In this document: piece by piece, positions 7,994 through 57,900 of the stretch
How the letters are laid out: each line of letters opens with the position of its first letter
Numbering within the stretch: the first letter of the stretch is position 1
DNA from: Branchiostoma floridae
Lineage: Eukaryota; Chordata; Leptocardii; Amphioxiformes; Branchiostomatidae
Direction: 5' to 3'
Length of the DNA stretch: 64,000 nt
Assembly (NCBI RefSeq): GCF_000003815.2
Contig: NC_049993.1
Location: forward strand, 7,749,762-7,813,761
Made by a program: the position numbers and the translations under genes
Notes under the pieces: model-generated
The model's input: the letters and a program-made list of their open reading frames with translations, nothing else
What the model was told of the DNA's origin: nothing
Databases searched by the model: none

Positions 7994-10900
7994 TCACTTG
8001 AAGTTGGCGTACATGTCGAAACTGTCCAGGTACTCGATCACTGCTCGGTAACAGAAGTTGTACTGGTCCTATGGGGAGGGAAAATGGAAGAGTCACTGTA
8101 AATACATTCAAGTTCGCAGGGATTAATTTCGTGGTAGCGGGAAAGAGGACTTTTTGCTGTGGTTTTAAGTTCGCATTAGCACCATGCACTGTTACTGTAG
8201 TCTCTTACTGCCATGGAAAAATGGTCACGTTGGTTTTAAGTTTGCAGTGTAGCGGCCATCGCGAAAACCGCGAACATTACCACCAAGAAAGTTTCTGCAT
8301 TTACAGTAATACGGCTGAAAATAGCTCCAAAATACAGCTGAAAATAGCTCCAATAATACGGCTGAATATCGCTCCTATAATACGGCTGAATATAGCTCCT
8401 ATAATACGGCTGAATATAGCTCCTATAATACGGCTGAATATAGCTCCTATAATACGGCTGAATATAGCTCCTATAATACGGCTGAATATAGCTCCTATAA
8501 TACGGCTGAATATAGCTCCTATAATACGGCTGAATATAGCTCCTATAATACGGCTGAATATAGCTCCTATAATACGGCTGAATATAGCTCCTATAATACG
8601 GCTGAATATAGCTCCTATAATACGGCTGAATATAGCTCCTATAATACGGCTGAATATAGCTCCTATAATACGGCTGAATATAGCTCCTATAATACGGCTG
8701 AATATAGCTCCTACAATACGGCTGAATATAGCTCCTATAATACGGCTGAATATAGCTCCTACAATACGGCTGAATATAGCTCCTATAATACGGCTGAATA
8801 TAGCTCCTATAATACGGCTGAATATAGCTCCTATAATACGGCTGAATATAGCTCCTATAATACGGCTGAATATAGCTCCTATAATACGGCTGAATATAGC
8901 TCCTATAATACGGCTGAATATAGCTCCTATAATACGGCTGAATATAGCTCCTATAATACGGCTGAATATAGCTCCTAATATACGGCTGAATATAGCTCCT
9001 ATAATACGGCTGAATATAGCTCCTATANNNNNNNNNNNNNNNNNNNNNNNNNNNNNNNNNNNNNNNNNNNNNNNNNNNNNNNNNNNNNNNNNNNNNNNNN
9101 NNNNNNNNNNNNNNNNNNNNNNNNNNNACGGCTGAATATAGTCTCTAACTGCCATGAAAAAATGGTCACGTTGGTTTTAAGTTTGCAGTGTAGCGGCCAT
9201 CGCGAAAACCGCGAACATTCCACCAAGAAAGTTTCTGCATTTACAGTAATACGGCTGAAAATAGCTCCAAAATACAGCTGAAAATAGCTCCAATAATACG
9301 GCTGAATATAGCTCCTATAATACGGCTGAATATAGCTCCAGAGTCTCTTCTGTCCTCTTGCGGAGAGACTTAGGAGCTATAATACGGCTGGATACCAGGC
9401 TAATTCAATGACCATTGGTCATTTGCATGAAGAGAATTAAAAGGCCTGTAATGTCCCCATGGATTTGACCAAACACAACAAGTCACTCCAGGACCTACAA
9501 ATGTGTTGGCTTTTTCACATACAGAGGATTGGTACTGACATTATCACCATTCTAAGCTCCCCCATACACAGAACTCAAGGCTTCATGACATTGCAATGTA
9601 AAAGTAATGTAAACTTGCATTCTCCTCAGCAAGGCGAAAACTCATTACTCACCTGAGTCTGCACCATATGGGGCCTTTGTTGTCTGAGAGCCTTGACGGT
9701 CTGGAAGACGTCGCAGATTCCTTCTGTCTTCACCCGCTCCAGGATGGTACACAGGGCAATAAACGTTCCTGTGCGACCGGCACCGGAGCTGAAAAGAAAG
9801 TCACAAAATTAAGATAACTGTTGAAATCTCTTTAAATCTTTATCTCTCTAAAACTACAGACAACCTGAAATAAAAGCTATCTGCCACCAAAAATCAAAAC
9901 TCTGCAGAACTAGAGATACAAAAAAAATAAAGTTCTGCTACAGTATCGGGGGAAGTTGATAGGAAGCTAAAAATCCCCATTGATGTTCATTGTATCAAGG
10001 AGGTTGAAATCAAGACCTACCAAGACTTTTACCAAAGTCATCACAATCCATCCAGACCTTCTTAAGTTATGATGGGCAAAGCAGGTTGGAAGCACAAACA
10101 CACACTTGCACAGATAGGTAGTACAACAAAACAACAACACCTCTCCTGTTCATTGAGATGAATATTTTCTTATTTTTCTTGTACACCTCTTTTTATTTTT
10201 CTAGTCCAACTTTCTTCTTTTCTTAGTTAGATTTTCTACTGTAACAGCTGTACCTGCAGTGCACTGTGATTGGTTAATGAGACGTTTGACTCATACCTGC
10301 AGTGGACTGTGATTGGTCCATTCCCAGACACCTGCTGCTGCCTCTGCACCTGACCAATCAGGTCTAGCATCCCGGCTGCCGTGTTGGGGGCTCCCACGTC
10401 CGGCCAACCGTGGAACTGGAACTGTTGCACAGTCCTGCAGCTCTGGTCCTGCACGGTCGGGAGTGGTAAATGTCTGGTTAGAATTCATCACATAACACTA
10501 ACATGTACTATAACATAGAACACTCAAAAGATGTAATCAAGCAGAGTGCTACCTTTCTAGTGTTGAAAGAACAGTTTGTAAGAAATTTTGATTTTCATCA
10601 ACTTGAAGTAAATAGTTACTGAACCAACTGGCTAGAGCTGTAAATGGTCAGATGTTTCAGAGTCAGCACCTGCTGCATGCTGCTTTTTGTCGATGACTAA
10701 ACCAGAATCTGGAGTTTACTGGTTTGTGAAAACATGCATCAGTTCACCAGTTTGTGAAATTTACTTTAAAACAGCTTGAGATTTAGGCTTCAAGTTCAGG
10801 CTCCAATCAAAAGGAAAGTTTAACCCTCCCTGACCTTAGACTTGCAGTTTGAGATGTGGAATGTCCTGAGTGTGTAGTCCTGGTGCTTCTCTATGCTGTA

Positions 10901-13900
10901 CAGCTCCACTGTCACATCACGGTACGTGCTGGATGTGTCTGGCCAGTACTTGGTACACTGGTCCTGCACAATTAGTCCTTCAGGTTAGGTTTTTCATGTA
11001 TAGGTTTCTGACCTTAAATAATATGGCATAAAGCATCACATTTTTTCAAAACTTGCAACGTACTCGATGACGATGCAACTTTTTGTTTCGTTTCATTAAA
11101 CTTTCCAGAGTTTGGAGTCGAAGGGACATGCAGTAAAAATCTTAATGCGACATCATCTCCGTCTGACAATCCTGCCAACTGCCAAGACTGTCACAAAACA
11201 GCACATTTAAAGATATTGACTAAAACAGCATCTGTAATCTCAGAGGTACTAGGTATGCACACTTTAGATATCCAGGTATTTCAAGCATAATTGAACAGGC
11301 CTCGAAACAATAAAGTTTTTCTACTGATATGTGGCACATCTACTTACCCTTCCCTTCTCCACCAGCTCAGTCAGCATGACTATAGAACATGTCTTCCACT
11401 CCCAGATCATGGACCAGAAGTCAGTAACAGTTTGGGCTAGGGGGCCTTGGGTTGCAATAAATGCATCCTTTTGTCTATAGCCCTATGAAGTGGTAAAGAG
11501 ACGATAATGTTTAGTTCAAAGGTGAAATTGATTCCCTTATAGAAAATAAGGAAAAGCAAAAAAAAGGGTGTAAAAAGGGATAAGGCATACTTTTTGGGGT
11601 CATGATTAATACATCTATAAATTTACCAATAAAGCTGAGGACAAAGTTGAGTGTTTTTGTTTTCTATCAGCCGTTGTGTCTAAATTTTGCATGCCTTTGG
11701 CTGGCTAACAATGTTACAAGCATAATGTGCTATGAACTGTAAACATTGTGGTTTAATTTTGACTTAAGGTTAAGGAGACTTAGCATGTGATATTTTTTTT
11801 GCGATTGAAATAAACAGAAGAACTCACATTCATGAAGGAAGCGTTGATGTAGTCAGAGTTCCTCAGGCCGGGTACAGCTGGGATGTACACTCTGTGGGTG
11901 TCATCTGAAATATCACACAGGTGTAAGCCAGTCTTAAGGTGTCAATCAAAAGTGCAAAAGAAATGTACAGGAAAATCCATGTCTACAGAAATAAGAACAG
12001 AAAAAATGCCAATCATGGGATTGAAAGAAGTATCATTATCTCTGACATCTTTTTCATAAAATCAAGTTAGGTGTTGTCCTTGAGCCCAATTCAAAAAAAA
12101 AAAAATTGAATTAAAGATGGCCCAAAAATCCGCAGAAAACCCCTGAAACATGCACCAACATCAAGAGTCTTTTTTTACTTTATTTTCCTGAATGTAGGAG
12201 CAAAAAGTTACTTACATGGCAGAACTTGCAGCACCCTGTTCTTACTGATGTTGTCCGGCAGGTTGCCTGACCTCATGTGGTGCTTCTCTATGGGAATCTT
12301 GGTCAGGTTCTGTTGGTGAATAGTAGTGTCATTACTTAACAAGAAGATGCGAGATGAGTGATGCAAAGACGCGGATGCAACTTGATTGGAAGAAGCTTTT
12401 ATTCACATAATGCCTACAATGCAGCCATCATGGTAGCATCATGGGATCTCTATCAATACTATGTTACAGCAGAGGTGTCACTACCTCATTGATATACCAT
12501 AGTGGCATAGAAACAAAGTATGGATGTTGTGAACTTCAATGTAGATGGGAATGTTGTGTTCAACATTCACACTCTTCAAGTGCTGAGTGCTAAGCAAAGA
12601 CAGCAGTATGTCCCATTTCAAACGTCTTGATGTCTTACCTTGAACTCTGTCTCCATGCCTGTGAGGTTGGAGCCAGGTTGCTTGGTGTGTAGTTTGTGCA
12701 TGTACCTGTGCATGTTGGCCACCTCCAGTTCAGTGTCTCCGTACAGGTGGTGCTCTAACACAGACTGGTAGATGAAGATGTACTGGGCCTGGGAAACACA
12801 TGTGACAATTGACATTTATTCCCGATTAGCCGGTTTGGGCTTTGCAAATATGGAGTGCTGTATACAATGTCACTATAAATGGGAAACGGTTTTGGATTTC
12901 AGAATTCTTTGCAATTTGCCAGTTTTTGCTACACAGCATATTGCAAATAACTGGTTTCTACTGTACTGAACAAGGAAACCTGCCATGGAGCCTAAATATC
13001 TTAGTTTCTTTCATAATACAAGACCAAACCACTGCAGACAGGTCTGACTGTATAGTCCTTTTGCCTTTCCTTGGTGCTGAAATGTCAGTATTTGTTGTGT
13101 CAGATTTCAAATAGAAAAAAACATACAGATTTGATTTGATTTATTAGGCTGTATATTCAATACATTCAACCTTTGGGAATATATACATTGCAGTACGCAA
13201 TTCAAGTGGCCACAAGGCGAGTATAAAGGTGTTTACGAAGCGCAATACTTATATGTGCTATTATATAAACTAGGTACTATCTGCATCTCTCACCTCAGTC
13301 TGCACCATGTAGCTCCGGTTGTGTCTCATCCTGGCCACACAGCCGAACACGTCCACCTTCTGTTCAGCTGCCATCATGTCAATCAAGGTGTCAATCACAA
13401 TGAAGGTGCCCGTCCTTCCCACACCGGCACTGAAGAGTAAATTTTGAAATATTGAATAAAGCCAGATGAGTTGAACCAAGTGCTTGAGCAGATTTTCCAA
13501 TGAGCAAATATGACAGATCCTGAAGCTGTAGCCAAATCTAAAAGGATAGACGTCAAAAGCAGTAATACATTACAGATAGCTAATGACTAGCCGAGAAAAT
13601 AAACTATTCTTACAAAACAATGCAAACTGTGCTAGAAGCTGAGAAAATCTGGTGAAACAGCAACAATGCCAATGTCCGAATCCAGTATTCAAATTTTCAA
13701 CAGCAGCGCAGTCGACACACTCATTTGAATTATTTGTTTGAAGCCATTGTGATAACAGTTGACCCCTGTCTGATAACGCTACTTATCACCCAGTCCGGAA
13801 TACCTGTATTCAACGTTATCCGAATCGTTTTTCTGAGTGTGAATGGGTTCATAAATATTTGAGTGTACAACATGTCCCCAATACCCACTAAGTAACACAC

Positions 13901-16900
13901 AACAATACAACACTGTAAAACAATGTACCTGCAGTGCACGATGATTGGCCCAGCTCGGTCAGGGTTGGATGCCTTCACTCTCTTCACAAACTTCATCATT
14001 CCCAGGGGACTCTGGGGCACTCCGAAGTCTGGCCAGCTGGTGAAGTGGAACTGGGTGATGGTGCGGCATTCCTGTAGCTGGGTGCAATACAATACAAGTC
14101 AAACGTAACTAAGTAATCTATCACAGTCTATAATACATGATGCTACCAGTAGCACTGAAGACCACCCAATCTTTAAGATCTTGAAAAGCAGACAATATAC
14201 ATATACCTGCAGTGGAACTGGGTGATAGTGTGCCATTCCTGCAGCTAGCTGCAGTACAATAAGTCAGACTAAGGAAGCTACCACAGTCTGTCTATAGTAC
14301 ACAAGACTGCCAGTAGCACTGCAGACTACCCAATCTTTAAGATCCTTTAAAAGCAGACTCCTCAAACTGTCTTCTCAATTGAAGTGACACGATCTTGTCA
14401 AAATGTCTTGCCTTTTTTTGCCATATTCAGACCTTTTTCAGTTTGTTCCACTGCAACTTGCATCTTGTAAGCTCCTTTGCTCTTCTAAGTTTTCTTGCAT
14501 TTCATGTGTGTGTTCTCCTCCATCACCCACCTATTCACAAATGGTTCTAGCTGACCCATTCCTTACCTGTAGATGCTGAACTGTCAGAGTCCTGATGACA
14601 AAGTCCACCAGTCTGACCACATCTGTCACCTCCACACTGATGTCTCCATACTGACCCACACCTTCCTCTGGCCAGTACTGGTGGCACTTTGTCTGTACAG
14701 AAACAGAGAAGAAACTACTTTTACTTTGTGTACATTGCAACAGCATAACTAGCATACAGTAACTTAATGGCTTTTCAATTGCCTAGATACACCTAGATAC
14801 AGTTACACACATACTCTCTCTCTCTGTCTTTTCCTCCCTCTCTCTATCTCTCTATCTCTCTCACACACCACACACACACACACACACATACACACACACA
14901 CCAATGCACATTCACATGCATGTACTTTTGCATTTAATTTTGATGTCATTGTTTACAAGTTACAGAAAGTCATAAAAATGTAGTACCTTGTTTTTCTCGG
15001 CCAAGTTTGTTACCATGACCACAGTGGCAGAGTTCTGCTCCCACACCATTCTCCAAAAGTCACTCACTGTTTCCTTCCTGGGACCTAGGAAAGATAAATT
15101 ATTTTTCATCAGCACTTTTGCTATCCAACTTAGTGTATTAAATGACAAAACAAGGCAGGAAAAATGTTTTAACATTTTCACATGCCATCAATAATAATTC
15201 ATCTCTTGATTGTTTCCTGAAAGCCACTGCAGCATTTGCAGGCACCCAATGGTCCTGTATATGACAACATGCAGGTTACTTATGTACACTTCCAAACCCC
15301 TTACCTTGTGAAGCTATAAACTTGTTAGGGACATCATAACCCTGCCCCAAGAGAAAATGGAAAGAAAAATAGCATAAAATGACAAAATCCAACAATCAAA
15401 ATAGAACATTTTTGAACAGCATATACTTGCATTGTCACTCGAAAAAATATATGAAAATGTAAGGCAAGGTCTTCTTACAAAATATATGTGATACACGGGT
15501 GAATGGTAGATAAAAAGTTAGCATATTCAGTTTTGGCAAATATAGCACAGAATGTCACATAGGATAACAATGACAATGTAATCAAGGTAACACTAGATTT
15601 GATGTACGGAGAGTCTATCAAGAAATAGATCTTTGCAGCCATGTACTGCTGAAGAATTATTAGGACTGAGAGGTCACTAGCTATAATGATGTTTACATGT
15701 ACATTGTAAGGATCCAGCATGGGGCAAAGACTTCACACTCACATCAATGAAGGAAGCATTGATATAATCACTCCCAGGTTGGCCTTCAATGGTGGACAGG
15801 ACAACACGTGCACGGTCATCTGAGCAGAATGAACAGAAACAAAGCAAGCCATCAATATGAGTTTGGCAAATACAAGGAGTCTAAGACTACAGAAAATACT
15901 GCTCTAGCCCCCTCAGTTCCAACCGCTCCAGCCCCCCTCAGCTCCAACCGCTCTAGCTCCCTCAGCTCCAACCGCTCCAGCCCCCTTAAGTTCAAACCGT
16001 CCAAGCCCCCTCAGCTCAGACCGTTCGCTCTAGCCCCCTCAGCTCCAACCGCTCTAGCCCCCTCAGCTCCAGCCACTCTAGCCCCCCTCAGCTCCAACCG
16101 CTCTAGCCCCCTCAGCTCCAACCGCTCTAGCCCCCTCAGCTCCAACCGCTCTAGCCCCCTTCAGCTCAGCTCCAACCGCTCTAGCCCCCCTCAGCTCCAA
16201 CCGCTCTAGCCCCCTCAGCTCAGCTCCAACCGCTCTAGCCCCCCTCAGCTCCAACCGCTCTAGCCCCCTCAGCTCAGCTCCAACCGCTCCAGCCCCCCTC
16301 AGCTCCAACCGCTCTAGCCCCCTCAGCTCAGCTCCAACTGCTCTAGCTCCCTCAGCCCCAGCCGCTCTAGCCCCCTCAGCCCCAGCCGCTCTAGCCCCCT
16401 CAGCTCAGCTCCAACTGCTCTAGCCCCCTCAGCTCCAACTGCTCTAGCCCCCTCAGCTCCAACCGCTCTAGCCCCCTCAGCTCCAACCGCACTAGCCCCC
16501 CTCAGCTCCAACTGCTCTAGCCCCCTCAGCTCCAACCGCTCTAGCCCCCTCAGTTCCAGCCGCTCCAGCCCCCTCAGCTCAGCTCCAACTGCTCTAGCCC
16601 CCTCAGCCCCAGCCGCTCTAGCCCCCTTAGCCCCAGCCGCTCCAGCCTCCTCAGCTCCAAACACTCCAGCCCCTCAGCTCCAGCCGCTCTAGCCCCCTCA
16701 GCTCCAGCCACCTTAGCCCCTTAAGCCCCAGCCGCTCTAGCCCCCTCAGCTCCAACTGCTCTAGCCCCCTCAGCTCAGCTCCAACTGCTCTAGCTCTCTC
16801 AGCCCCAGCCGCTCTAGCCCCCTCAGCTCAGCTCCAACTGCTCTAGCCCCCTCAGCTCCAACCGTTGTAGCCCCTCAGCTCCAACTGCTCTAGCCCTAGG

Positions 16901-28900: not shown

Positions 28901-31900
28901 AAGTAATGCCCCTGACCCACTTCCAGTCGTCTGATCTAGATGAAATTTTGTCTGTGTAAAAGTAATGCCCCTGACCCACTTCTAGTCGTCTGATCTAGAT
29001 GATTCATATATTTATAGGTTATGTTGCAAAAAACAGCTCTGAACTAATTGTAGTTTTTGATTTACTGGTGTTTGAACTGAATCAGGTGCGAAATGGACCA
29101 GGTGTGAAATGGAACCAGTTGAGTGTCGCGCAGTGATCCGGTTTTTGTATTTGAAAGGACGCACACCAAAGAAGATTTTTGATGAAATGAAAGAAACTTA
29201 TGGTGATGATGCCCCATCATATGACCTTGTAAAACGCTGGCATCCTGAATTCAAACATGGCCCAGACCTGGTCGTCCATCTTCTGCCATTGATGAGGCAT
29301 CTGTTGGAGGACCAACCTGGGGTGTCCTACAAAAACGGTGTCCAGAGCTGCATCAAGCGATGGGAGAAATGCATAACTCCGGGTGGTTCCTATATGAAGA
29401 GAAAGACTGATAACTGTGCCAAGTTTCATTAATCTCCTGCTATGGAAAATGGGTCAGGGGCATTACTTATTGACCGCCCCTCGTAGAATGCTTGGGTGAA
29501 TGGGGAAAATTGTGACCACAATGGCTAGGTGGTCCTTATGCATGTTGTGACTGTACATGTTAATGTTATAATTGACTTTATGATTGAAACTGTTGTTCAG
29601 AAGATGTACATGTACTTCTTTATTGATTACAGAGCCGGAAGCAAGGTAATTAAAATGTCTTGAAAAGCTAAAGCATGCAACTTTACCTCTCACAATGAGC
29701 CTCATGATGCCTTGCTTTCCATCATTAAACCCTTGGTAGTAGCACTCATAAATCCCCTCATCAGAAGACTGGACACTGTCTATGCTCAGGTTGAGTCCAG
29801 TCTGTCCATCCAAGACAGATCCGGCCGTCCCGTCCTTCCTCCACTGCAGAGTACCGGTTCTACTGGACTTCTCCACCATCTGTAGGGTCACGGGGTCTCC
29901 TATGTTGGCTGTCACTGTGAAGGCCACTGGCCAAACATCGGCTGAAACAAGTCAATGCGGAATTTTAAGATTAATCAGGTGCTGTTGCCTTTTCTTTGCA
30001 GTGCCTGAACTTGATTATTTTCATCTATGAATGGTTGATCACTTACACAGTTACAGGGCCCATCCCTCCATCCATCTCAAAATCAAAATTCGCTCGTTAG
30101 AATGGACAAAACATTTCCCCCTGTATGTCCAACAATCTGAACTCCATGACACGAGATTGATGAAAATGTATAATTATATATTATACATTTCGTAAGCTAA
30201 AAATGGTTTTATGGATAAACTAACCAACACCAAAATTGCTTGGTTCTTATCCCTATAAAGGAAAGATTCAAACAAGAGTAGGAGAGAAAAACATCTAAAG
30301 CTGGAGACCTGATATACAAACATTGTATCACAAAATGATAAAAAAATAAAATTGAATTCCGTCAGCATCACAGTACAGTGCTGTTGAAAAAACCTTTAAA
30401 ACATTTGTCCAAGAGACTGTTGGAAGGAATGGACTTACTAATGGGCACATCTGTTTTGGTTTACCCTTTGTTTGTGTTGGATGAACCAATTAGTAGTGTT
30501 TGTTTTGTGTGAGGCCCAGAATCAGTCCACTGAGGTTTGGGCTTTTTGGACTGGTCCAAAGTGATTCTTAGGGGACAAGGAGGGAAAGGTGAACCCAGCA
30601 GCAATTACTACTCTGGCGGTTGATCAAATATTCGCAGTCCCTAATGATGAAAGTGATTTGCCAGATTCGCCCTAGCTTACTCACCTACTGACGGCGGTCT
30701 TTTCTTTATCTTGGTTTAAGATACAGCTTAGATGGGTTGTATTTGCAAAAAGGTTCGCGGGAAAGAGCCTTGACAACTTGCAATTTTGTGGGTATTTAAC
30801 AGAAAAAAGTATTTTGAAGTCTGATCAGAAAAAGGTTTACTCGCCTTTCGATTTCATTTTCTAGAAATCACTTACAGCTTAGGTATATTGTATTTTCTGA
30901 ATATTTTAACAAGTAACAAAATTGCAGGTAAGAGAAATGCATTAAGCCTGATCAGGATTAAGTTGTACTCACCCTCCGACTTCATTTTGAAGGTAATGGC
31001 CTTTTCTATGGTTCCATCAGCGCTCTTCACCTGACAGGAGAAGGCCCCCACCCTGAAGTCTCGCGACTCGTCCCAGATCTTCACGCTCTTGGCTCCGGCA
31101 GAGCCACCGCTGTTCCTCTTCCGTGTGAATAGTCTTCCAGCGCCGGTGTCGACCTCCAGGCCAAATGGGTACCTGACATATCACAATGCATGCATATTAA
31201 TATTTGCATTGGATACATACTTATCAGTCAGAATGGAAGTCAACTTAAGGTACCTTACATGCAGTTACAGCCCTATGTTCTATGTCAGCCTATGCTCTCA
31301 CTATTAAACCCAAAGTCTATTGTTACCCTAACTTAGATATATCATAGAGAACAAAGAGCATGGGGATGTTGAGAAATGTTTAAACTTTGTTCCAACACTA
31401 AAAGAAACTCATCACGGGGAGGTCCCCTTCAAATGGATGGTTTCATAGATATTTCAAGGCATGTAAAAGGTTGGAAACCATTGTGCTTACAAAAATCTCA
31501 ATTGGAGACTAATTTGCCTAGACTGCCAAGTGAAGGAGAGCAAACTTGGAGTTCAGCCTGAGGACAAAATTTGTTCAGACGTCCTCCTTTTGGTGTGGAT
31601 GGAGGTTAAAAACTTTATAAGTATGTGATATCAACTCTCATCATTCCAAAAGGTGCCATAATACTTTCTCAAAATTGTCTTAAACACCTAAATATCTGAA
31701 ATGTGTATACAGATGTTGCATTAGCACATCTCTTTTAATCACTTTGAAGTCATGTATTCATATACTAGTATCTATTTATGTGATGGTATGATGGCATCTG
31801 GAGGAATTATGAGAATTGATGTTACCTGTTCTGGTTGACGACAGTGCCTGTGTAGTAACAGTACAGCCAGGTGTCCGCTAACTCCTCAATGAACTGGAAC

Positions 31901-39713: not shown

Positions 39714-42700
39714 TCACAGTTTGGGTTTGAGTTGCTGTAAGCTAAGTGCCTCCTGCACTAGCCTGGCCGCCTGTTGAGCACACCCCCAGTGGAGGGTGAT
39801 CCCCGCCCCACCATGGCCATAGTTGTGCACTACCTGGTAGGAGCACAAACAAACTCACATAATACAAAAACCTGGTCCCTTCAACACCAACTTGTTCAAA
39901 GCTCAAAGGAATACTGTACTCCAGGGGAGAGTGTTCTGGTTCTACTGGTAATATTTTTTGAATCCCAGAACGTAATTTTATTGGCAACTTGACATTGACT
40001 TTGGACATGGCAGAAGTTGCATTAAAGATAAGTAGCTTAATCAATCATCTCACCTCAAGACTGGAGGAACCTTTCCCTACCGACTCTCTCTCCAGTCTGA
40101 CCTTTGGCCTGCTGGGCCGTAACCCCACCCACTCATGGTCCACTTTGCACTTCTGCACAAAGACATGAGAGTATGCACTGTACCAGTTGTTGATTTGGCT
40201 GTCTGATGACATCATAAAATTTCTCATCATAAAAAAAAAAGAAGCAAAACACAAAACAGCGATCTTGAGAGTAGCATCAGAGTGGCACTAAGAAATGTCT
40301 CTCTTTCCAAGTGGAAAAAAAAAGTCAAGCCACTTTGGGGGGTTGGAGAATCGCAGTATACTTAAAAGTTCTTGATTGAATTGCACTTGATCTTAAAAGC
40401 AGGCCCTCTCATCAGTAGGGCCAATGCATATGCCCAGGATGCTGCGTAACTTCTACCCAAACTTAGCAAATACTTCGATGCAGGGCAGGGCAAAAAGAAA
40501 AGTCCTCTAACTTTCCCTTTCATCTTACAATGTAGTTCTCTGACACTGTTTACAGTCAGAAAATAATATTATGAAGTTTCAATTTTTGTCTATAAAGGAG
40601 GAAATAATGGTTGAAATTTTTGTATGTTCAAAGCGACACACTTCCATTCAGGAACAGAAGGGAGGACTGACAATGGGAGGCTCAGGCCAGACAAGTCGTC
40701 TAAATAATTGTTTTCTACAACGTCCCTTGCCTAGACGATCTGTTAAACACGTTGCTCTAAATGCAAAACCCTGACATTTTAAGATCTTTACCCTCAGACT
40801 TGGCACCAGTTGGCAGCAGCCTTCCCAGATGGCTTTGCTGTCAGTGGGGTGTGGGCTGAGGTTCCAGTTCCCCTTCTGTGCTGTTCCACCCAGAACAACA
40901 TTGTTGGAACTGCAAGGACAATACCTCAAGGTCAAGTTTACTTTTGAAGTTTCTCGGGCCACACCATCTTATATCCTTGGTTTCCACACATTTCAAAATG
41001 TAAATACAGCAAGAGGACATCATAAAAGGAGATGGTGGGGTAGGGGGGGGGGGGTGGAAATATGATTGTACTCACTCCATAAAACTAAGCACTAAGGCAC
41101 AGATTATTTTCATTGATTGTTTTCTAGTTACACATATTTTCTTTCTATCTGGGACCAAACATATTAAATCAGCGTGCCATGTTCCCAGAAATATATCAAT
41201 AGCTAAAGTTCACTTGGAAAACAAGTTCTGTTCTACTAGACAGACATTTTCAATGTTCCTTATAATGACAAGACTGCCCTAGCTTAAGTTTTGTTCTTGT
41301 ACCAAACATGACCACAAAAATGCACGCCACAATGAGCATTATGAGTCCAGAAAGACTTTTTAAAAAACAGTTTCCAGATGTTTGTCCTTTTAGACATCTT
41401 GAAAAGAAATGTCAAACTTCAGGAGTGGCATGGGCATTCATATAACATGAGAAATGAAATTCGATTGGAGAGGGGAGAAAAGAAAGGATAATACGGTCAT
41501 GTATAACATATTATGATTGAAATTTAAGTGATAGAACACAAAGAGAAGTGACTCCTTACCAAGGGATGATATAATAACAGTCTTCATGAGCAATCAGATA
41601 GTGTTTCACCCAGGGTGCATTGACCTAGGATTTATAAATGCAGCACAGCTTTGATTAGGTTGGGAGGTACCAATATTAATTTTCATCATCTAAGGACCAT
41701 CCACACATTAATTGGTCAGACTTTGAAGCATGGTTCAAGTTTAGGAACATTCTTTAACAAAATATAATGTTATAACATGTACTATATTATCACAAGTGTA
41801 CCTTGGGCCCGAAAGTTAAAATGGAAATCCAACAGCAGATTAAATCTGTGTATATAGGTATCAATCTTGATGCTGTATTGGATCAGAACATCTGAATTAC
41901 ATCTGTCTTTTATGCCAAACAAGCTTGACATCTAACATTGAGCTGATCTGACCAATCAATATAGAGGCATGGTCCAAGGTGAAGATTAAAATGTCTTAGT
42001 TCCCTCAATGTCTTTAGAATTAAGAATTACGTCTTCTTACCATGGAAATATATAGAAATCATGTCCATCATACTCAGCATCAAAGAAACATTTGATCCAC
42101 GGAGCATGTACCTGGTGATGGAGAAGTTAGAAGAACACTACAACTGTTACAGCAGGTATTGTAAAAATCTTAGTGGAGTAAGCTGTGCCAGAATCTTCAT
42201 ATCTGATTGCACTGATGATTGTACAATCTTGCACTGGCTAGAAATCCATGAAAAAGTATTGCTTAAGGTACCATGTATTAAGTAAAGTGATTTAATAAAA
42301 AATTCAATCTTCATAAAAGATATAAGACTTTGACATTATATCTAGTACATAAAGGTAAGTGTTCTTAAACTAGTAGTGTGTTCCCTGCTTTGGTAAGAAT
42401 CTTTTTAAATCAAACTGCATTTTTCCTAACTAGTTCTGAACAAAATCACATTGCCCTGTGGCCACTGAAACTTATGATGTAAAACAAGGAACACCCAAAT
42501 AACATAAAAGCCAAAATTTTGATGGAACCAATTGGAGCGTATTCTGTATCTGTTTGCCAAGACTAACTTCACAAAGTTCACTCTATCTCTTCTCCAATAA
42601 GGCCTTACCCTGTAGACTTGTCCCCTAACAGGCTGAACTGTGCTGTCTCCCACCAACTCTCCGGCACCGATCCCACAGCAGTTCACTACAACATTGTAGC

Positions 42701-45700
42701 GGTCAGCAAGCTGGAGTCAAGACATTAGTAGATTCACATATTGATAAGAGAACTACACACACCCTTCTTCTAGATGTGCAGTAAGGTGGTTTCAATTAAT
42801 TTATAGATTAGACCAATGCTATCCATCCCTACATTGTGTTTCAGTAATGGGCCATTTTATCCATGGGTATTAGCTCACAGATAATTAAATTTAAAACTGG
42901 CATGAGTACCTAGCCTGAGTACCATCCTCCGTAGTGGCCGCTGGCTCAATACTTACACTTGGTTTGCAAGCAAAAGTATTGAGACAGCGGTCACTACAGA
43001 GGATGGTACTCAAGCTAGTACCACTATCTGTGGTGTGAATCAAGGTGAATGGACAATGAACTCTGAACCTTTTCGTCTGAACATGTTAAATTTTTCTTGA
43101 AATTAAAACTTTTTCTGTTGCACAGTAATAATTGTGACAGCAGCAAAGCAATATGGTTTCATTCGGCATCCCAATCTTACCTCAGTCAGTGATGTAACCT
43201 TCCCCTGTTGCACCTTGCCTCCAGCTTTCTTGAACTTCGTCATCAACCAGGGTAGATATTTCCTACCTTCACACAGCAGGTGGGTAGAGAACCATCCGGA
43301 GCTGAAAGGCAATGAAGTGGTACGACTTACCCCAGATTTTCTAAAAAGGCACATACATCAATATTGTGATATGTCATTGGCTGAGAAAGAATTCAAGTGC
43401 TTTGATAGTACAAAGGTATATGAGACACATAGTCTATTCTTAAAATAAATTGCAACATCAGTGAAGCACATTTGTATACATTACATATGCATTGGTTTAT
43501 ACAAATATATTTTCTTATTTCAAGTTTCAACACTGAGATACAAAAACCTTTTCTATATTCCGTTGCAGTACCTAAACCCCTGCATGTACCTGAAACCAGG
43601 AAACTGTTGCAGGTCTTGTTTGGTCAGGTGACGAAACCCAAATACTGTGGAAGCCCAGTCTGGATCCTAAAAACATAATAACACAGAACAAAGATCATGT
43701 ACATGTACCAGGTTGTCCTTAAGCTTTAAAGTAGACTTCCCATAAAATTTTTTATGTAATTGAAATACAGACAAGCCTGTGCAAGTGACCACCTCTGCAT
43801 TGGGACCATCTGACCATTGTGGCCTCTTTTTTTAGCCTGGTATCCCATTCCAGCCGTATTTGCGGAGAGGACAGAAGAGACTCAGGAGCTATAATACAAG
43901 TGGATACCAGGCTACTCTTTTTGTTGGTCCCATTAGCATCAAGAACCCTATATATGGTGGCCATCTGTCTACTGAGTCTCTCAGGTTATACATAGATTAT
44001 ATGACATGTAATTACCTGTCTCTCAAGTTATACATAGACTATATAAGATGTAATTACCTGTTGAGGCTGTTTATGTAAGTGGTAGCCAGACAGTAAAATC
44101 ACACCAGCATCACAAGCCACAGGACTCAGGTACAGAGTCTTCAGGTGGTCCCAGGTTTCATCCCCCCAACGTCTTGAAGCAAAAATAACATTTCTTAACA
44201 AAACTGAAGAAAAAAATAGAACTTCTTAGAAGACAAACACCTCTAAACAAAAACAATAATAGCTCATAGTCATACATTCAAATTGTAGTACAGGTAGAAA
44301 AATTGTCAATCCCAATTTCAGTATGTATAATGTATACAGCCTTGAAACACATCAATATATGAAGATATATTTTCAATAATTTTCTAACTAATCTAAGATT
44401 CAAATAAAGTCTTTTAGTGAATTTTATGCAAGGAGTCTTTTGAGAAAAAAAAATACATGTGTATGCAACCTGCAGTAATATTCCATTCTTTGAACTCAGT
44501 TATCAAGCTAATTGGATGCAGTCAATTCTCTCTAAAAAAGCCATTTCAAACTTATAGGAAGTCATATAAAGTAATATTGTCGACTTTCCGCCTGCGGCCA
44601 GTTGAAGAAACAGAGGTCCTAAACGAGCTTCTTAGGCTCAAGCCAAAGAAAGCCACAGGAGTTGACAAGATTCCATCAAGGCTCCTTAAGGATTCTGCGC
44701 CTATAATTGTCAAACCGTTAGCACACATCTTTAACCTGTCTATAACATCAGGTGAAGTTCCCGACGACTGGAAACTGGCTAAATTATCGCCCATATACAA
44801 ATCAGGGAACAAAGACAGTGTTTCCAACTACCGTCCTGTCTCGGTCCTAAATGTGGCCTCCAAAGTGATGGAGAAAATGGTTCATAACCAGGTCTCACAC
44901 TTTGTGAACAGTACTGGCCAGCTCACGGCACACCAAAGTGGTTTCAGAAAACACCACAGCACAGGTACAGCAGTGCAAAAGGTGGTGGAGGACATCCAGT
45001 CAGCACAAAACAAGAAGGTAACTGTCGCGCTGTTCCTTGACCTAAGGAAAGCGTTCGACACTGTCAACCACCAAATCCTCCTTGGTAAACTTCAGAAGAT
45101 GGGTTTTGACAACGGGGCGATAAATTGGTTCAGATCTTACCTCACAGACCGTTTCCAGCACGTAGATATTCAGAACCAGCAGTCTACGCAAAAACGTGTC
45201 ACGTGTGGTGTCCCGCAAGGGAGCGTGTTAGGTCCTTTGTTATTCAGCTTATATGTGAATGATCTACCACAGGTTGTGCGTAAGTGTAAAATCCATATGT
45301 ACGCAGACGACACTGTGCTTTATTGCTCGGCTAGCCTGTCTAAGGAATGTGAGGAAACTGTGTCAGAGGACATGAAACTGGTAGCTAACTGGTTTATTGT
45401 AAATAGACTATCACTTCACCCTGACAAAACTAAAGCCATGTTATTTGGATCACCTCAGAAACTGCGTCACGCAGGAAACACTGTCACTGTAACTGATGGG
45501 TTTAACTCATTTGAGCAGGTAAAAGTGTATACTTACCTAGGTGTCACCATGGACTCCTCTCTAAACTGGTCAGCACACACAGAAAGGATGGTAAAGAAGC
45601 TCCTTGCTGGCCTTAGTGCCTTAAGCCGGGCTAAGCCTTATGTTACTAAGGAGATCCTGCTAGTCATGTGTCGAACCTTGTTATATACTCACCTGGATTA

Positions 45701-46552
45701 TTGTGATACTGCATGGTTACTGTCACTTTTTCATTGTAACAAAGTAAGATCACAACAGTTGACTAAACTGCTAAATCGGGCAGCCAGGATTATTACTGGA
45801 CGATCACTCAAAGATCGTGTACCTACAGAAACCCTGCTTACAGAGGCTGGTATGGTACCCCTGGTTGAAAGGGTGAAATTGAACACGTTAGTGACTGTAC
45901 ACAAGGCAGTGCGCCACAAGGCACCTGCCTACATGACACAAATGTTCAAATGGCTGTCGCCCCCAGTGCTTAGAGTTCGTACTCGCACTGCTACGAAACA
46001 GCTCTACAACTTCGACCCTCACATGCTGGACACTCCAAAAGCACATGTGGAAACCTTCAAGGGCAGCCTGCAGTACCTAGGGCCTGTCCTGTGGAATAGT
46101 CTTGCTGCTGATCAGCGGAAACACACGTCAACGTCAGCATTTAAAAACGGACTGTAGATGACTGCCGATGTGCCTATACTGAGACTGTTTTGTACATGTA
46201 AATGTTTGCAACGTTATTTGTATATTGTTGGGTTTAAACTGTGTCATGTAATTTTTAATGTGTGTCCAGGGATACCTGAAAATCAGATCAATGGATCTGA
46301 GGTTTTCCCTGGTAAAATAAATAAACTTGAAACTTGAAACTTGATTGTTTATAGTTCATGCCTGATAAGCTCTTGTGGTGTGTCGTTCAAGATGTGTGGT
46401 TCCCAGAAGCCAGCGGCACCGTCGCTCGTTGTGTGGGGAGAGAACTTCTCGGACAGAACTGTGACTTGGACGCCAGGGACTTTCTCCTGGATACAGACAG
46501 CAGAAGACAAGCCGACCACCCCCGCACCAACCACACACACACGGCGGACCAT
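39714..46552 (-). CDS. D-amino-acid / D-aspartate oxidase
   Basis: FAD enzyme that oxidises D-amino acids to oxo acids, ammonia and H2O2 in peroxisomes. Constitutive exons on the minus strand: 46362-46552, 44058-44172, 43590-43666, 43181-43301, 42609-42710, then one of 42041-42111 or 41560-41624, then 40792-40909, 40054-40152, 39714-39833. All phases fit, giving 337 or 335 aa, close to the 341-347 aa of vertebrate DDO and DAO. Motifs: FAD Rossmann [10 protein letters not shown] at residues 8-17, [45 protein letters not shown] (Arg that binds the substrate carboxylate) and the C-terminal [14 protein letters not shown]. The protein ends in PKL, a plausible PTS1 signal. The start ATG sits in ACCATGG. 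Intron 1 uses a GC donor (ATCAG|GCATG). The sequence mixes DAO-like and DDO-like features, so I leave the substrate class open. Confidence 0.93.
41560..41624 (-). CDS. Oxidase alternative lid exon B (65 bp)
   Basis: Acceptor AATCCTAG, donor CCTTG|GTAAGG. It encodes [10 protein letters not shown], a short acidic stretch (AHEDC) and YYIIP, then splits a codon in phase 2. It matches the same part of DAO/DDO (APW...YIxP) as exon A at 42041-42111, with identical entry and exit phases. The Tyr of YIIP corresponds to the substrate-binding Tyr228 of human DAO. Confidence 0.85.
42041..42111 (-). CDS. Oxidase alternative lid exon A (71 bp)
   Basis: Acceptor CATCACCAG, donor CCATG|GTAAGA. It encodes [10 protein letters not shown], then DAEYDGHD and FYIFP, two residues longer than exon B and clearly different in the lid loop. 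Using both exons would add 136 bp and break the frame, so transcripts should contain one or the other. Confidence 0.85.
42908..43022. repeat. Palindromic MITE of about 115 bp
   Basis: TAGCCTGAGTACCATCCTCC and its inverted copy GAGGATGGTACTCAAGCTA are separated by a short loop; the inner arms GCTCAATACTT / AAGTATTGAG also pair. It is in an oxidase intron and non-coding. Confidence 0.8.
43833..43914. mobile_element. Small hAT-like foldback MITE with target duplication
   Basis: Ends TAGCCTGGTATCC and GGATACCAGGCTA; flanked by CTCTTTTTTT on the left and CTCTTTTT on the right. The length is 82 bp. Same terminal family as 35785-37146 and the fragment at 9328-9402. Confidence 0.7.
44577..46345 (+). 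mobile_element. 5'-truncated non-LTR retrotransposon with intact RT frame
   Basis: A single long frame, stop at 46155-46157, encodes the reverse transcriptase. Visible blocks are [59 protein letters not shown] (motif A), [10 protein letters not shown] (motif B), MYADDTVLY (motif C) and a thumb/C-terminal part with RAARIITG and GPVLWNSLA. The endonuclease half is missing, so it is a dead 5' truncation. The 3' end carries CCAGGGATACCTGAAAATCA and closes in short tandem copies of AACTTGA rather than poly(A), as in CR1/L2-like elements. It lies antisense in oxidase intron 1 and stops just short of the exon-1 donor. The frame is undamaged, so the insertion is probably young. Confidence 0.85.
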
Positions 46553-54900: not shown

Positions 54901-57900
54901 GGGACCAGCTTCCATGTTAGGCTACCTGGTTTTCTCAGGCCTGATTCTCACAAGGTAAGATGTTCTCTATAGTGTAAAAATCTTAGTGGTTTAATACATA
55001 GGTTTTCTAGCCTTTTTTCTTCACCTATGGCTTGTTTAAGAAAGCTCTTGTCTTTACAATTGGTTTAGTGTCCAGGTCACAGAGCAAGTAAATTGCTACT
55101 CTCTAAGCAGAGGTTGATAGGGAAAATCATAAGAAAAAGGTTTCAATTTTTGCCATTAACCTCTGCTTGGAGGTAAATAATATCTGTTTCAATCAGTCAT
55201 CAGCAAGTCTGTATGTGCCATATTTGGCCAGTCTGTGATGTCATTTATATCTAAATAGAAAAAAAGATACATACAAATCAGGGCTTTAGCCAGCTCAAAA
55301 TTTTTTTCCGTCAGCCAATTACAATCGTCGCGAAAACCGCAAAAATTAATTAGAAGGACTGAACTAAGACCTTGAAAAACGGGTTTTAATGAAATTATCG
55401 TATGCGAAAGGGCGCAGACGCACATTGTCAACAATCATAACAATAGCAAAACAAACAGTGTGTGGCTTTTACGGCCGTGGACGGCGTCCCCAAGCCGCCT
55501 GTAGCTTCCACCAAGGATTTTTGTCTGTAAAGGTTGACGGATTGGTTCTAAAATTTTTCCGTCAGACGCAGCAAATTTCCGTCAATTGACGGAAAAACGG
55601 ACGCTGGCTAGAGCCCTGATACAAATAGAAAATAAAGAATTTTCCCGTTGTTGGGGATGGCCATGTATTCATGTTTAAACCATGTTGCAGGTTGCGACGT
55701 CCCATCGGTAAGATGACAGTTCAGGAACAGAGGTACGAGGGAGAATTCCGCTACGTCAACTCCAGGCTCATCACCAACAGGTAAGGAAACACCTTGAAAC
55801 AATTTCTGTTAGTCTGAAAAGTAAAGAATACAAGTGTCGTAGGTAAGGCTAGTTCTCCTTTATCTGTTGGGTAACCTGAAACAGAATATATAGGCCTGGG
55901 ATATCAAGCCAACAGAGGGTGATCTCATCATATAGCAATATCTTCAAAATATTGCAGTTGTTTTCAAAATATTGCACGGTCCATTGACACAGATAAAGGT
56001 TACCTGACGGTCAAAGGTGAACTAGCATTCCAATAAGATCTGTCTGATGCATATTGTTTTGAAAGTTACCTGCACCAGTGCAGGTATGCAGATAGAAGTA
56101 TTTTGAGCTCTGTCACGGAATTGCCTATGTCTGTAGTCAGTTTTACAATACCACTATTATGCAGTACCTCTGTAATGTGCAAGGAGTCCTGCATGGTAAC
56201 ACTGTTGTGGTACTAGCAGGGTTGTAGCCAGCACCTGTCCTTCAGTCCTTTGAGTTTGAAGGAATTTTGCAGCTGGGGACTGAAAAAAGTTTTCCCCATT
56301 CCGTCCCCTGGGACAGACAAAAATTGATATGTAAAGATATAAAAAAACTGAAACCCATGTGTTCTTCTTCACCAAGACAGATGTCATTGAACAGTTAGTC
56401 TACAAGCACAATTTGCACATCAGAATGCAGGAAATAGTGTTTCAGAGGGTCTTTATTTAAAAATTTTCTGGGACCCAGACCCCCTAGAAATGATGCGCAA
56501 CGTCACGCCATGCCTTCGGTGCTCGATTCCCAGTCAAAATCAAGGGGACTGAAAATGATTTCAGGCTGGTTACAACCCTAGGTACTAGCACATTATCTGG
56601 GCACTAAAATTTGGATCAGGTTTAAAAAAAGTTGTACAAGTTTTTGTATCCTATTTTTGTGGATAGATCCTTGACAATCAATCTGTGTTTTGTTGCTATA
56701 GTGAGGAGATTGCATTCTACCAAGGCAACCAGCGGGAGAAGGCCACCATAGAATTGTCATTCCAGAAACTGGTCAGTTGCTTTAATTGGTTTAAACCATT
56801 GTATTTTAGACTTTCAAAGTTTGTTAAAAAAACATGTATGAATGTTCCAGAAGGGTAGAATGACTATCTCTACTTGGTTAAACAGATACTAAAAGTGTTT
56901 GGTATGTGGTCAACTATGAACACAATGTCATAGTATTACAAATTTTTGTGCTAATTTGATGCGTATGTTTAGGTTGAACAATTTTATTTTTGTTTCAGAT
57001 TGAGCACCTGAGAACGTTCATCGTGTTCCGTTTCTCCATGGGATTTGTGGACAACATCATCGCTAAGTGTGAGTATTACTTTCTCAGGCAAATATTTACT
57101 CTATACATGTCTTACAGAAAGTTATGTGTACATGTTTATGAACTTGAAGAACAAGCCATCAAACAAGCATGTATTGCAGTCATTTGGGTGCTTGTATTTG
57201 GACACATCACAGAATACCTTTAATAGCCAAATTAATGGGCCACAAACCAAGAAATTCAATTTGCATGGCGTTTTATCCTAAAAGCCTATTGTTATACTTT
57301 TCCTCAGATGTGGCCACTGTGGTGGGGTACCTTGTTGTGAGTAGGCCATTCCTGGACCTGGCCCACCCCAGACATCGGCACAGCACACACAGTGAACTAC
57401 TGGAGGTCAGCACTTGTGGCTTGTCTTTAGGCTTTAGAGTTTGCATACATGTATCACTAAGATTGATTTATTCATTTATTGGTTTGGCTGTTCAACATTG
57501 GGACCTGCTGTTGAATATGATCATGACCAGAAAATGTTGTACGCTATTTATTTTGTCACAACTACTTCAATGTGAAAACGTTTGGCTCTTGATGATGACT
57601 GTCCTCTACCTGGCTTCTACAAGAATGGTGAAAATTTTTATTTTTTAATTATTTTTTTAAAACACCAAAATCGAATTTTTTAAAATATGAATGTTTAATA
57701 CAATATACAAAACATATTCTACACATATAATACGTTATGATACATCACAATAGATATTTTAGAGATTACTTTATACTGTAGGTAATTGATGATATAATTG
57801 TCTCCTGTACAGGACTACTACAAGAGTGGACGTATGCTGGTGAAGATGGCTCAAGCCATCGGCAGGATTGTCCTGGCTGGGAGGGAGATGACCAGGCTGG

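Follow-up and report, generated by a model that had tools for sequence, protein, structure and literature searches.

Can one gene of the D-amino acid oxidase family make two enzymes with different substrate pockets, by splicing in one or the other of two exons for the active-site lid? The question is raised by a 64,000-nucleotide stretch of Branchiostoma floridae DNA (contig NC_049993.1, positions 7,749,762 to 7,813,761), hereafter the window. On its minus strand, from 46552 to 39714, the window carries a gene for a flavoenzyme resembling D-aspartate oxidase (DDO), a relative of D-amino acid oxidase (DAO). The gene has nine exon positions, the sixth of which is present twice (6A and 6B). We favour the reading that 6A and 6B are tandem lid exons, one or the other of which is spliced in to give two substrate pockets, and assign it a probability of about 0.6.

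Probable exon choice in the oxidase gene

Joining exons 1–5, either 6A or 6B, and exons 7–9 gives proteins of 337 (isoform A) and 335 residues (isoform B), both with the C-terminus LKPKL. The coding length through exon 5 is 606 nt (phase 0), and the phase is 2 after 6A or 6B; exon 7 stays in frame only with exactly one of the two upstream. When both exons are joined, a stop codon appears within 6B, 263 nt before the last junction; when both are skipped, the stop lies in exon 7, at a distance of 148 nt from that junction. The first-pass annotation had described two homologous lid exons lying in tandem between the same constitutive exons, each entered in phase 0 and left in phase 2, and breaking the frame if used together. 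Its coordinates, strand, exon lengths, AG/GT sites, phases and translations were all as claimed, joining the exons confirmed the behaviour of the frame, and each of the two lids is present in a database protein isoform. Very probably, one lid exon is spliced into each transcript, and nonsense-mediated decay is the expected fate of transcripts with both exons or neither.

Both 6A and 6B are flanked by AG/GT splice sites. The donor of 6A matches at 7 of 9 positions and that of 6B at 6 of 9, compared to 6–8 of 9 for the other introns. Owing to its lower pyrimidine content (9 of 16, against 12 of 16 in 6A and 10–12 of 16 in the other introns), the acceptor of 6B is the weaker one, and inclusion of 6B may depend on help, given the stronger tract of 6A. 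The introns between 5 and 6A, 6A and 6B, and 6B and 7 are 497, 416 and 650 nt in length, respectively; with 416 nt between the two copies, there is no reason to invoke steric exclusion. For RNA pairing as a possible cause of exclusivity, the best duplexes between introns were compared with 15 crude block shuffles each, passed through the same step, in one species. The duplex of intron 5 with the 6A–6B intron scored −34.0 (shuffled minimum, −34.3), and that of the 6A–6B intron with the 6B–7 intron −32.2 (shuffled minimum, −41.1). Intron 5 with the 6B–7 intron reached −39.6 versus −34.2 for the shuffles, which are crude and from one species; such pairing would loop out both exons.

The isoforms are already in public annotation, where the evidence for them consists of the names of predicted proteins. 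Isoform B is identical to P0002 (Branchiostoma floridae "D-aspartate oxidase-like isoform X2"), and a further B. floridae record, P0004, has lid B too. Lid A is found unchanged (23/23) in P0001, isoform X1 of a B. floridae x B. japonicum assembly; the five differences between P0001 and isoform A of the window all lie outside the lid. Lid B is also found in B. lanceolatum P0003 (isoform X2) and B. belcheri P0005 (isoform X4). Judged from titles and abstract openings, the open-access papers searched include no report of a lid-exon swap in DAO or DDO, and neither enzyme name occurs in the main text of two surveys of exon substitution in humans.

The lid and the substrate pocket

Both isoforms carry the PF01266 domain over most of the protein and have the DAO/DDO fold; they were modelled with high confidence as one fold, with a lid hairpin in each. 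According to a 2021 review of human D-aspartate oxidase, Arg216, the loop 217–221, Tyr223 and Tyr225 are located at the substrate. Arg216 forms a bridge to the side-chain carboxylate of D-Asp and sets D-Asp specificity, and its replacement in the R216Q variant brings a gain of activity on D-Ala; in DAO, the corresponding pocket contains Leu51, Gln53, Leu215 and Ile230 (PMC8260693).

The lancelet lid segment aligns to these same human DDO residues, with the Arg216 equivalent as the sixth residue after the lid Trp. At the Arg216/Leu215 position (residue 213), lid A has Asp and lid B has Ile; at the Tyr225/Ile230 position, they have Phe and Ile, respectively. The carboxylate-binding Tyr is retained in both lids and the carboxylate-binding Arg in the constant part, where the Arg237 position is Ala and His54 is His. 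Both arginines of an acidic-specific D-aspartate oxidase, Arg216 in the lid and Arg237 at the entrance, are thus missing. Among the 243 of 258 family lids with the Trp in place, the Arg216 position is Arg in 109 and Asp in 3; within the same set, lid A has a unique Cys where 209 lids have His. Lid A is 23 residues in length with a net charge of −3, and lid B is 21 residues with a net charge of −1. Neither has a Tyr four places before the kept Tyr, as a long DAO lid of the Tyr224 type would.

From these residues, the following mechanism can be proposed. Inclusion of either 6A or 6B, which encode the lid together with the pocket wall, would produce two enzymes with the same flavin core and different substrate pockets. 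With Ile at both the Leu215 and Ile230 positions of DAO, isoform B would have a neutral, DAO-like pocket and favour neutral D-amino acids. Isoform A, with Asp at Arg216, Phe at Tyr225 and an acidic lid two residues longer, would disfavour D-Asp, with a possible preference for small or basic D-amino acids. We consider it probable that exon choice changes substrate preference in some such way.

The first-pass annotation had gone further, pointing to a possible split of preference between D-Ala and D-Asp, so that one lancelet gene would cover the roles that vertebrates divide between DAO and DDO. Neither proposal is supported. We rejected the D-Ala/D-Asp split because Arg216 is replaced by Asp or Ile and Arg237 by Ala, and because the lancelet has a separate DAO gene. 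In a tree computed from 60 of the 258 proteins after removal of the lid, four lancelet proteins of this gene (P0001, P0002, P0003 and P0005) form a single clade with support 100/100. The window gene lies on the invertebrate/DDO side of the fork (92/94, just under the strong-support mark of the tree tool), with no resolved pairing with vertebrate DDO; it does not branch with vertebrate DAO. P0157, a separate B. floridae protein with a DAO-type lid of 27 residues, joins vertebrate DAO (100/99) and therefore represents a separate DAO orthologue, which speaks against a double role of the window gene.

Could the swap serve another purpose? Both lids may be used, with the swap tuning not the choice of D-amino acid but turnover, product release, stability or inhibitor binding. 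Product release in human DAO is limited by slow lid movement, whereas flavin reoxidation is the limiting step in human D-aspartate oxidase (PMC8260693), and the conservation of the carboxylate-binding Tyr and Arg would suit such a role. However, the swapped segment includes a side-chain pocket position, Arg216/Leu215, at which the two lids differ in kind (Asp versus Ile). We regard this alternative as unlikely.

Age of the copies and lid differences in other animals

The 6A and 6B peptides have 10 residues in common over 23 aligned positions (V, APW, K, A, D, YI and P; identity 0.43), and their alignment score of 46 was equalled by none of 20,000 shuffles. A lid profile built without lancelet proteins was searched against the 3,353 open fragments with a length of 12 residues or more on both strands of the window. 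It matched 6B with an E value of 8.7e-9 and 6A with 6.3e-6, the next best being 0.16; neither a third lid copy nor a second DAO-like gene was found among these fragments. In DNA, 44 of 71 aligned columns are identical, and comparison of the copies with 200 nt on each side revealed no significant similarity (best E value, 0.32), in keeping with a duplication long ago. Compared with lid B of B. lanceolatum and B. belcheri, lid B has identities of 0.81 and 0.71, respectively. Since the identity between A and B is lower than these cross-species values, the duplication seems to predate the separation of the compared Branchiostoma species.

Several points weigh against two functional lids with distinct pockets. 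Lid A is unusual at two positions that are otherwise well conserved in the family; it is known from one or two closely related genomes, and it was not seen among the listed proteins of B. lanceolatum and B. belcheri. In addition, D-Asp and D-Glu are substrates of an octopus D-aspartate oxidase (PMC2241627), whereas the octopus match P0129 has no Arg at the 216 and 237 positions; if they are the same enzyme, prediction from these residues can fail. The peculiarities of lid A and its absence from the listed proteins of the two sister species would also be expected if one copy, most likely 6A, were a relic or a cryptic exon taken up by automatic annotation. This is improbable in our view: despite an apparent age beyond the species split, 6A keeps VxAPWxK, YI-P, its phase and both splice sites; its splice sites outscore those of 6B; and lid A is intact in the second assembly, whose constant part has changed. 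An on/off switch, in which one lid is inactive or dominant-negative or in which inclusion of both or neither exon silences the gene through nonsense-mediated decay, would make use of the early stop codons of the wrong combinations, but both isoforms model well and nothing here indicates that these combinations are used, so that we consider it very improbable.

A survey of 256 of the 258 proteins yielded 1,514 pairs with an identity of 0.75 or more outside the lid. The median lid identity of these pairs is 0.86, and only 12 fall below 0.5: three from Diadema, one Acanthaster/Patiria, one from Mya, four from Branchiostoma, and three between Salminus P0174 and its relatives. When a window of 24 columns is moved along the whole protein, identity is lowest at the lid in the lancelet, Mya, Diadema and sea-star pairs. 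Among 11 chosen pairs in a sliding-window check, this was so in 9, the others being P0020/P0131 and P0056/P0042. The residue at the junction changes in such pairs as G/S, W/R and G/S, which is permitted by the splitting of its codon after the second base.

A parallel is found in the clam Mya arenaria. Outside the lid, 318 of 319 alignment columns match between its annotated isoforms X1 and X2, whereas the identity inside the lid is 0.38. The divergent stretch starts directly behind RGQVIR, and its last position is the residue that follows the lid proline (G/S), which is the place of the split junction codon in the lancelet. An annotated isoform pair that differs only in the lid segment and the junction codon is a new observation here. 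Same-gene cases are plausible for Mya and the lancelet only. Diadema was considered as a second one and downgraded: P0040 and P0193 of D. setosum are distinct proteins, with identities of 0.88 and 0.92 in the parts before and after the lid, and the lid may follow the gene. With at least two genes in Diadema and a sea-star pair that spans species, the lid differences of sea urchins and sea stars are suggestive only.

Some further features were seen in the compared proteins. The model of P0193 contains about 37 extra residues directly after the lid, as if the intron behind a lid exon had been read through, and P0123 of Ruditapes philippinarum has extra residues just ahead of the lid, as if running into the intron before an alternative lid exon. 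Six echinoderm-type proteins (P0018, P0074, P0075, P0087, P0160 and P0210) have lids without the widespread APW motif. The D-aspartate oxidase-like proteins P0174 and P0195 of the fish Salminus brasiliensis have lids of 0.48 identity, against 0.81 for the rest of the sequence; P0174 has Gly at the Arg216 position.

On a broader scale, and at somewhat less than even odds, the DAO/DDO lid exon may be a swappable specificity cassette that was duplicated in animals either repeatedly or in ancient times. Two or more lid exons would then be kept at one and the same junction of a single gene in lancelets, in clams and probably in echinoderms, with splicing instead of gene duplication retuning D-amino-acid removal.

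Gene layout, neighbourhood and known systems

The exons of the oxidase gene are listed in Table 1. The donor of intron 1 at 46362 is apparently GC (CAG/GCATGA), as supported by the identity of the joined protein to P0002. Antisense within intron 1, a 566-aa open frame (44457–46157, plus strand) contains a reverse transcriptase domain (RVT_1, E value 1.2e-43).

Table 1. Exons of the D-aspartate oxidase-like gene, in positions of the window
Feature	Coordinates	Strand	Remarks
Exon 1	46362..46552	-	Start codon at 46552; GC donor
Exon 2	44058..44172	-	
Exon 3	43590..43666	-	
Exon 4	43181..43301	-	
Exon 5	42609..42710	-	Ends in phase 0 at ...RGQVYR
Exon 6A	42041..42111	-	Lid plus 2 nt, 71 bp; identical lid in P0001
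Exon 6B	41560..41624	-	Lid plus 2 nt, 65 bp; identical lid in P0002 and P0004
Exon 7	40792..40909	-	Gives third base of junction codon (TG/T, Cys)
Exon 8	40054..40152	-	Holds GLRPSRP with the carboxylate-binding Arg
Exon 9	39714..39833	-	Ends ...LKPKL, stop

In the region from 48424 on the plus strand to about 57.6 kb, a frame is head to head with the oxidase gene, the start codons being about 1.9 kb apart. We take this frame and that at 57169–57645 to resemble the peroxisomal transporter ABCD3; the 57169–57645 frame has no Pfam match. A promoter shared by two peroxisomal genes, if true, would be of interest. Elsewhere in the window, an open frame at 8071–9135 on the plus strand consists mostly of many copies of the short repeat RLNIAPII and adjoins a run of N, and protein-tyrosine phosphatase and immunoglobulin domain fragments at 13730–14092 and 29463–29927, both on the minus strand, are probably exons of other genes.

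The nervous system of B. lanceolatum contains D-aspartate, plus N-methyl-D-aspartate made from it (PMC2241627). A splice-selectable substrate pocket, if true, would be a direct means of setting D-amino-acid signals by tissue. Two proteins differing only within a 23-residue stretch offer a natural experiment on the role of the lid, and the variation of the same segment in clam isoforms makes it a testable question whether specificity is retuned by exon swapping or by new genes.

Like mammalian D-aspartate oxidase, the lancelet enzyme has the fold, gene family, tree side and His54; different from it, both specificity arginines are replaced and there are two lid exons. With mammalian DAO it shares the fold and, in lid B, hydrophobic residues at the Leu215 and Ile230 positions. 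The DAO lid is longer (27 residues in P0157 versus 21 and 23) and includes Tyr224, and the lancelet keeps its DAO orthologue as a separate gene. By analogy, the lancelet pair is best placed with the known exclusive-exon enzyme systems, the closest of which are ACSL1/ACSL6 and coq-2. The fatty-acid gate exons of ACSL1/ACSL6 are a mutually exclusive pair (PMC1543647) in an enzyme of different chemistry; its gate variants are distinguished by Phe or Tyr, and there is also a form without the gate, whereas skipping of both exons breaks the frame of the lancelet gene. The coq-2 exons 6a and 6e are 134 nt in length, encode two helices of a prenyltransferase and were tested by exon deletion in C. elegans. 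The coq-2 pair has been reported from helminths, annelids and molluscs, and mrp-1 is cited in the same paper as a case of repeated origin. As proposed here for the lancelet oxidase, mutually exclusive exons in coq-2 remodel the core of an enzyme and switch its choice of substrate (PMC7434440).
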